Shown: positions 29,371 to 30,851 of the stretch, piece by piece
How positions within the stretch are numbered: the first letter of the stretch is position 1
How the letters are laid out: each line of letters starts with the position of its first letter
Source: Halococcus salifodinae DSM 8989
GTDB lineage: Archaea > Halobacteriota > Halobacteria > Halobacteriales > Halococcaceae
Direction: 5' to 3'
Assembly: GCF_000336935.1 (NCBI RefSeq)
Contig: NZ_AOME01000053.1
Coordinates: 9,526 to 73,525 of the forward strand
Length of the DNA: 64,000 nucleotides
The notes under the pieces: generated by a model
Told to the model about the DNA's origin: nothing
The model's database searches: none
What the model saw: the letters and a program-made list of their open reading frames with translations, nothing else
Made by a program: the position numbers and the translations under genes

Positions 29371-29378
29371 TTTATATA
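29371..29378 (+). promoter_or_regulatory. TATA element of the proteasome operon
   Basis: TTTATATA followed by ACGAAAATC, 48-55 nt ahead of the psmA ATG. Transcription would start near 29400, leaving a short 5' leader of about 25 nt. Confidence 0.65.
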
Positions 29379-29425
29379 CGAAAATCACTAACCTCTGGTG
29401 AATTCGAGCGGAGCGCCATCACGTT

Positions 29426-30163
29426 ATGCAAGGACAAAACCAGCAGCAAGCCTACGACCGCGGAACCACGATCTTTTCGCCGGACGGCCGGCTGTACCAG
29501 GTCGAGTACGCCCGTGAGGCAGTCGAGCGGGGGAGTACGAGCCTCGGCGTCCGGACCGAGGACGGCGTCGCGCTCGTCGCCGAGCAACGGGTCCGATCGC
29601 CACTGATGGAACAGTCGAGCATCGAGAAGTTGCACAAGGTCGACGATCACGTCGCCGTCGGATCGGCGGGCCACGTCGCCGACGCGAGACAGTTGACCGA
29701 CTTCGCCCGTCAGCAAGCACAGGTCGATCGCCTGCGCTACGGCGAACCGATCGGCGTCGAGACCCTCGCGGGGGCCGTCACCGATCACATTCAGGAGTAC
29801 ACCCAAACCGGCGGTGCGCGGCCGTTCGGCGTCGCGCTGCTCATCGCCGGCGTCGAGGACGGCCAGCCCCGACTCTTCGAGACCGACCCGTCCGGCACCG
29901 CGACCGAGTGGGCGGCGAGCGCCGTCGGTGCCGACCGCGAAGAGATCCTCGACAGCCTCGAAACGAACTACCGCCCGGATGCGGACCTCGACGGCGGCAT
30001 CCACACCGCGCTCAACGCGCTCGCGTCGGAACGAGACGCGTTCGAGTCGAGCGAGGTGGTGATCTCGACGATCGACGTCGAAACGGAGCAGTACCGCACG
30101 CTCGACAATAGCGAGATCGAAGCACACCTCGACGAGATCGATTTCGAGGACGACGATGAGTGA
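29426..30163 (+). CDS. psmA: 20S proteasome alpha subunit (paralogue-like)
   Basis: Non-catalytic ring subunit (245 residues). The N-terminus MQGQNQQQAYDRGTTIFSPD with GRLYQVEYAREAVERG is the alpha signature and gate region. The middle part (IEKLHKVDDHVAVGSAGHV, then LRYGEPIGVETLAGAVTDHI) resembles the second haloarchaeal alpha type (PsmC-like) more than the main PsmA as I know them. The acidic tail ends DEIDFEDDDE. It overlaps psmB by 8 bp, so the two are translationally coupled and should assemble together. The symbol is used for family, not for orthology to the main PsmA. Confidence 0.92.
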   Translation: MQGQNQQQAYDRGTTIFSPDGRLYQVEYAREAVERGSTSLGVRTEDGVALVAEQRVRSPLMEQSSIEKLHKVDDHVAVGSAGHVADARQLTDFARQQAQVDRLRYGEPIGVETLAGAVTDHIQEYTQTGGARPFGVALLIAGVEDGQPRLFETDPSGTATEWAASAVGADREEILDSLETNYRPDADLDGGIHTALNALASERDAFESSEVVISTIDVETEQYRTLDNSEIEAHLDEIDFEDDDE

Positions 30164-30851
30164 CGAGCTTCATCCGACGAGCGGAATCGATATCGAAGCG
30201 AACGCCACCGCCCCCGAGTTCGACGTTTCGTCACAGGGAGCCGGCGGCGAGGAGCTCAAAACGGGAACGACGACCGTCGGCCTGACGACCGAGGATGGCG
30301 TCGTTCTCGCTGCGGACATGCGCGCGAGCGCCGGCAACATGGTGGCGAGCAAGGACGCGCAGAAGGTTCTCGAAGTCCATCCGACGGCGGCGCTCACCAT
30401 CTCGGGCAGCGTGAGCGCGGCCCAGTCGCTCGTGAACTCGCTGCAAGCGGAGGTCCGCCTCTACGAGACTCGTCGCGATACGGGGATGAGCCTCGAAGCG
30501 CTCGCGAACCTCACCGCGAACCTCCTGCGGAGCGGGAACTTCCAGATCGTTCAGCCGGTGCTCGGCGGCGTCGACGACGACGGCAGCCACGTCTACGGCA
30601 TCGGTCCCGGCGGGAGCGTGATGGCGGAGGACTACGCCGTGAGCGGATCGGGATCGCCGTTCGCGCTCGGCGTGCTCGAACAGGAGTACGACGTGGGAAC
30701 GAGCGTCGAGGACGCCAAAACCATCGCGGCCCGCGCCGTCCAGAGCGCGACCGAGCGCGACACCGCCAGCGGCAACGGACTCACGCTCGCGACGATCACC
30801 GCCGACGGTGTCACGATCGACACCTACGAGAGCGTCGAGAACGCCCTGTGA
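30156..30851 (+). CDS. psmB: 20S proteasome beta subunit
   Basis: Proteolytic subunit (231 residues) of the 20S core. Self-processing would cleave after Gly37 in LKTGTTTVGL, exposing the nucleophile Thr38; Asp near residue 54 (VVLAADMRASAGN), Lys in ASKDAQKV (Lys70 region) and SGSVSAAQSL complete the family pattern. The propeptide of 37 residues is shorter than in the main haloarchaeal PsmB proteins I know. Its ATG lies inside the psmA gene. The pairing of alpha and beta in one overlapping operon is unusual for haloarchaea, whose subunit genes are generally scattered. Confidence 0.93.
   Translation: MSDELHPTSGIDIEANATAPEFDVSSQGAGGEELKTGTTTVGLTTEDGVVLAADMRASAGNMVASKDAQKVLEVHPTAALTISGSVSAAQSLVNSLQAEVRLYETRRDTGMSLEALANLTANLLRSGNFQIVQPVLGGVDDDGSHVYGIGPGGSVMAEDYAVSGSGSPFALGVLEQEYDVGTSVEDAKTIAARAVQSATERDTASGNGLTLATITADGVTIDTYESVENAL

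Follow-up and report, generated by a model that had tools for sequence, protein, structure and literature searches.

The stretch of DNA analysed here (the window; 64,000 nucleotides of the Halococcus salifodinae DSM 8989 genome) carries two overlapping genes for 20S proteasome subunits, preceded by a TATA box and a dyad. The features of the locus are as follows.

29371–29378, forward strand: TATA box, TTTATATA, which lines up with TATA-like elements in the remaining Halococcus copies (from the sequence and the upstream alignment).
29388–29402, forward strand: HSR1-type dyad CTAACCTCTGGTGAA, CTAAC-N5-GTGAA, predicted from its conservation to be an operator over the RNA polymerase/start region.
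29426–30163, forward strand: second 20S proteasome alpha subunit (alpha2), an ORF of 245 aa.
30156–30851, forward strand: second 20S proteasome beta subunit (beta2), an ORF of 231 aa.
30156–30163, forward strand: overlap of the alpha stop and the beta start, 8 bp, ATGAGTGA (from the sequence).
30156–30266, forward strand: beta propeptide, 37 residues, with a degenerate YxPELG motif (APEFD), from comparison with other betas.

Alpha2 matched the archaeal 20S alpha equivalog model (TIGR03633) over its full length with 318 bits (cut-off 287.35), was matched by the Pfam models PF10584 (N-terminal signature) and PF00227, and kept the YDR gate motif and the pocket lysine (Lys68 in the window copy). 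Beta2 barely exceeded the cut-off of the archaeal 20S beta equivalog model (TIGR03634; 224.5 bits, cut-off 224). Its catalytic Thr38 is Thr1 of the mature chain, and Asp17, Lys33, SGSGSP, and RDTASG are kept, as checked in every Halococcus copy. Between Halococcus species, the paired genes had dN/dS values of 0.10–0.36, similar to those of the main genes, and the alpha-beta pair is under purifying selection within the genus. The paired alpha of Halococcus morrhuae (L024, L005) was 12 residues shorter than its relatives, and the record contains ambiguous bases; the shorter form may be an assembly effect.

The 8-bp overlap and the 37 residues preceding Thr38, both reported in the first-pass annotation, were confirmed, the former at 30156–30163 and the latter from the beta ORF. 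Translational coupling of alpha2 and beta2 through the overlap is expected, and the overlap would also point to a fixed alpha/beta stoichiometry. The propeptide had been called short as well; 37 residues is an ordinary length (30–60 in other alpha-then-beta operons, 43 in the main Halococcus beta), and comparison with these operons and with the main betas refuted shortness as a special trait. What is unusual in the paired propeptides of Halococcus is that the YxPELG motif is mostly lost.

Four proteasome genes were found in the window genome: besides the two of the pair, contig C74 carries a main psmA and contig C54 a main psmB. The pair is a second set, because the genome also has the separate main genes. 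The first-pass annotation had suggested looking for another psmA/psmB set and had named as fatal to its proposal the case of this being the only pair in the genome; the separate set is present, and that case does not hold. The window alpha was 65% identical to the main alpha, and the mature beta 70% identical to the main mature beta. The pair was present as a unit in seven of the ten Halococcus genomes, wholly absent in three, and also present in the sister genus g75. Alpha-then-beta pairs occurred in 32 genomes of six haloarchaeal families (f1, f2, f3, f4, f8, and f10 in the family codes of the search tool, in which f5 is the Haloferacaceae type); the genomes were mostly picked among those with at least four proteasome genes, and 32 is not a prevalence. 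Being spread over six families, the arrangement is neither rare nor unique to the window genome. The earlier remark that the main haloarchaeal 20S genes do not share an operon holds for those genes; second alpha-beta operons, by contrast, are frequent in haloarchaea. The gap between the two genes was −8, −4, or −1 nt as a rule and +2 or +3 nt in three f8 genomes; the −8 overlap was identical in all seven Halococcus copies and also occurred in operons of other families.

Another kind of adjacent pair, beta-then-alpha, was seen in 20 genomes from many haloarchaeal families (L039, L043, L044, L048, L049, L052, L055, L057, L058, L061–L068); these pairs were far more divergent and had no dyad. Highly divergent single proteasome beta-like genes were present in family f5 and others (L092, L097, L111, L125, L157, L077, L078, L105). 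In two genomes of the genus g69 (G333 and G206; L238, L243), the sole normal beta gene found was apparently that of the alpha-then-beta operon, which may serve there as the main beta.

Conserved neighbours were rejected as a proof of orthology, the flanks being kept within Halococcus only; the genes around the pair code for an aldo-keto reductase, a ketopantoate hydroxymethyltransferase, and a luciferase-like protein, with unrelated functions. No clean empty site was found in the three pairless Halococcus genomes, where the flanking genes lay on different contigs. A plasmid origin of the pair was discarded (all plasmid hits below 60% identity), as was a recent transfer of the whole pair from another genus: the sample contained no close relative outside Halococcus, the best alpha match there among the sampled genomes was 72% identical, and the paired beta groups inside its own family. 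Co-occurrence with an extra PAN was not upheld either, two PAN-type ATPases being present in Halococcus with and without the pair alike (the second is a fragment in the 72%-complete genome G247).

The phylogeny of alpha and beta subunits that the first-pass annotation had called for was computed and gave a divided answer. All Halococcaceae betas, main and paired, formed one clade (support 96), and a single clade of all operon betas was rejected (p-AU 7e-5; 0.001 without family f8). Together, these two results indicate that the paired beta most likely originated from the main beta of its own family. In the best trees, the operon alphas grouped with Haloferacales PsmC, apart from main PsmA, but the AU tests were not decisive: an alternative tree with paired and main Halococcus alphas as a clade had a p-AU of 0.053 in one analysis (constrained search incomplete) and 0.589 in the other, and the specific pair-plus-PsmC clade had a p of 0.058. 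Overall, the trees make it likely, though not certain, that the paired alpha comes from an older second-alpha lineage. In support of the grouping in the best trees, four of its residues (A52, I66, E124, L139) are common to PsmC and the other operon alphas, unlike PsmA, and T128 is common to the operon alphas only. The alpha had been described as PsmC-like in the middle and PsmA-like at the N-terminus; the four residues bear out the first part, whereas the N-terminus is generic.

Upstream alignments placed the dyad immediately downstream of the TATA box in all Halococcus copies and also in operons of other families. The pattern NTWAC-N5-GTNAR was found in all 30 alpha-then-beta operons outside f2, between the TATA box and the start codon and at a similar distance from the former, as compared with 3 of the 194 upstream regions of other proteasome genes (Fisher p 3e-34, the pattern having been derived from the same operons). 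A stricter pattern, TNACC-N3-GGTNA, was present in 18 of these 30 operons and in none of the 194 other regions; no single alpha, single beta, beta-then-alpha pair, or orphan PsmC gene had it. The dyad was not found in the two alpha-then-beta operons of family f2. Judging by the usual archaeal promoter spacing, the window dyad is expected at about −14 to +1, as would suit a repressor. The operon dyad is asymmetric, its right half being mostly GTGAA (as in the window copy) and not GTTAG, and the perfect CTAAC-N5-GTTAG was found in one alpha-then-beta operon (G162). GTGA resembles part of a Shine-Dalgarno sequence, yet the dyad starts 19–69 nt from the ATG, and its left half is equally conserved.

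Genome-wide, CTWACNNNDGGTRAA had two matches in the 4.2-Mb window genome, this operon and one other, and the reversed-pattern control had three. The 12 genomes scanned contained 0–3 pattern matches each, including the operon promoters that fit, and the reversed-pattern controls likewise gave 0–3 per genome; a single match therefore carries weight only where several genomes agree. Other single matches (L300, L307, L308, L312, L314, L315) looked like chance and were set aside.

The second match in the window genome overlaps the start of the gene for P0001, a winged-helix regulator of 229 aa. The DNA-binding domain of P0001 was closest to the NCBIfam Phr model (1.5e-26) and matched PDB entry 2p4w (9e-22), which we take to be Phr of P. 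furiosus. The protein was below the whole-protein Phr cut-off (320 bits) and, as judged from its sequence, is a family-level Phr homologue, not a Phr equivalog. The dyad was present at the Phr-like regulator gene in four Halococcus genomes, including one without the operon; the link between regulator and motif was established inside Halococcus only. P0001 was not found among viral contigs or plasmids. Through the dyad, the Phr-like regulator apparently controls its own gene.

The search for the dyad also covered three Cdc48-type genes per genome in five Halococcus genomes, as well as the two PANs and another AAA gene from the window genome. One cdc48 operon per genome (5/5) had the perfect CTAAC-N5-GTTAG upstream, with a TATA box at a similar distance, and the dyad was absent from the other Cdc48-type genes of the five genomes and from both PAN promoters of the window genome. 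The perfect dyad is found 1 nt upstream of the ATG of a DUF7127 gene (PF23444; L318:1450–1686 and its equivalents L323, L326, L329, and L332); this gene, and not cdc48 itself, directly follows the dyad. The DUF7127 gene shares 4 nt with cdc48 in four genomes, and in the fifth it ends 1 nt ahead of cdc48. The DUF7127 protein is 79–81 aa long. It is modelled as a beta sandwich; small heat-shock proteins make up almost all of its top structural matches (best E only 0.015, probability 1.00), and a small-heat-shock-protein-like fold is predicted for it.

For Archaeoglobus, PMC9133787 gives CTAAC-N5-GTTAG as the HSR1 operator and describes it as autoregulatory, and two further papers (PMC5852551, PMC10653856) place Phr and HSR1 together in arCOG01684, with Hsp20 and Cdc48 as targets. 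By analogy, the Halococcus pair may work like a Haloferax-like alternative 20S combined with an Archaeoglobus HSR1-type regulon. Its likeness to Haloferax volcanii (alpha1 PsmA, alpha2 PsmC, beta PsmB) lies in the second alpha type and the alternative 20S, there with growth-phase-dependent levels (PMC2910475, PMC6267482), as well as in the residues common to PsmC and the operon alphas and their grouping in the best tree. H. volcanii is reported to have one beta among three core-particle subunits in total, whereas the Halococcus alpha2 is paired with a separate beta in a coupled operon; likewise, the HSR1-type dyad stands on the Halococcus operon, whereas nine orphan PsmC promoters of family f5 are without it. 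With A. fulgidus HSR1 and P. furiosus Phr, the likeness comprises the CTAAC-N5-GTTAG dyad, an ArsR-type autoregulated repressor, and the hsp20 and cdc48 targets; unlike in these regulons, the Halococcus regulator gene stands apart from the hsp20-like/cdc48 genes, and the putative regulon adds a proteasome operon. The 20S of the bacterium Rhodococcus erythropolis has two alphas and two betas, and no stress operator is known for it. The vertebrate immunoproteasome is a conditionally expressed alternative 20S, a heteromeric particle in which only the catalytic betas change; the comparison is one of concept only, the haloarchaeal case duplicating a whole homomeric-type alpha-beta pair.

A second, conditionally used 20S particle had been suggested in the first-pass annotation. 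The second set is real, its alpha stands apart from main PsmA in the best trees, and conditional use is supported by the HSR1-type dyad in the promoter; the beta, however, is not an independent lineage. HSR1-type control is proposed because the same dyad is present at the Phr-like regulator and at the hsp20-like/cdc48 operon, mirroring the HSR1 targets. We consider it probable that the pair encodes a heat-shock-regulated alternative 20S (alpha2-beta2) alongside the housekeeping psmA/psmB, under the same control as a Cdc48 unfoldase. In the unstressed cell, a Phr/HSR1-like winged-helix repressor (arCOG01684) would occupy the start region and block RNA polymerase. Protein-damaging stress would release the repressor, and alpha2 and beta2 would be translated from one overlapping mRNA and form an alternative, catalytically active 20S with an alpha ring unlike the housekeeping ring. 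Via the same operator, stress would also induce the small Hsp20-like protein and one of the Cdc48 paralogues, which could supply substrates to the alternative 20S. Regulator binding and repression, heat induction, a homogeneous alpha2-beta2 particle, and the pairing with Cdc48 are what we infer from these sequence features.

Exchange between the two sets was visible in the betas. In the window genome, the main beta (L003) is of the pair type over mature residues 120–142 (11 consecutive informative sites, permutation p 5e-5), which is likely a trace of gene conversion into the main psmB; the pair-type tract, at about residues 115–142, lies around the SGSGSP segment. In the genus g18, the DNA identity of paired and main betas was 94–98% within a genome and mostly 86–92% between species, and that of the alphas 79–85% within a genome and 84–96% between species. 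At the g18 loci L053, L060, L236, and L244, with L150, L145, L265, and L266, paired and main betas evolve in concert per species, and the alphas are distinct. The g18 paired alphas sit inside the main PsmA clade yet retain the HSR1-type dyad.

The near-identical g18 betas suggest that beta pools are shared in that genus. Together with the apparently converted tract in the window genome and the alpha1-alpha2-beta particles that H. volcanii makes beside its alpha1-beta and alpha2-beta ones (PMC6267482), they lend some weight to hybrid particles, in which the operon subunits would mix with the main ones to give altered gates or chambers. Such mixing is compatible with heat-shock control and competes only with the separate-particle step; we hold it to be a possible but tentative account, as the two Halococcus betas now share 70% identity, the genes of the pair are either both present or both missing in a genome, and the coupling of alpha and beta argues for co-assembly.

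Regarding the control of the operon, its half-site wobble (GTGAA, not GTTAG) would also fit a different, non-heat-shock regulator with a similar dyad that answers to another condition, such as oxidation, salt, or stationary phase. Levels of the second alpha go up in stationary-phase H. volcanii, a strain of which restricted to alpha2-beta particles tolerates hypochlorite (PMC2910475, PMC6267482), and for haloarchaeal hsp5 the core promoter is reportedly enough for the heat response (PMC9133787). Such a regulator nevertheless seems unlikely, since the dyad precedes a gene of the Phr/HSR1 family and the hsp20-like/cdc48 operon, as in the HSR1 regulon. Most improbable is that the pair merely adds dosage as a redundant in-family duplicate under no special control, the upstream element being a general promoter or leader feature: the beta clearly comes from the family's own main beta, gene conversion between the copies occurs, and one test left a paired-plus-main Halococcus alpha clade unrejected (p-AU 0.589), but the second alignment all but rejects that clade (p-AU 0.053, incomplete search), and the dyad is missing at the main alpha and beta, is found at only 3/194 other proteasome genes, is nearly absent genome-wide, and recurs at the Phr-like regulator and the hsp20-like/cdc48 operon.

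The new part of these results is the upstream dyad, not the operon arrangement or the propeptide. According to a 2026 review (PMC13022661), the benefit of alternative archaeal 20S particles is unknown in most cases; heat-shock control through a named operator would provide a concrete, testable reason for keeping one. The dyad-bearing genes would form the first candidate Phr/HSR1-type regulon in haloarchaea, for which no such heat-shock mechanism had been identified according to a 2022 review (PMC9133787), and a 20S core would be linked to one specific Cdc48 paralogue through a common, putative operator. In g18 and Halococcus, the betas appear to have been homogenised or replaced by main copies, and the regulatory element persists. 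We give about even chances to the wider proposal that many haloarchaea keep a dedicated heat-shock proteasome under an HSR1/Phr-type repressor, together with an Hsp20-like protein and Cdc48, in which the operator would stay fixed and the coding sequences, above all that of the beta, would be repeatedly overwritten by the housekeeping copies.
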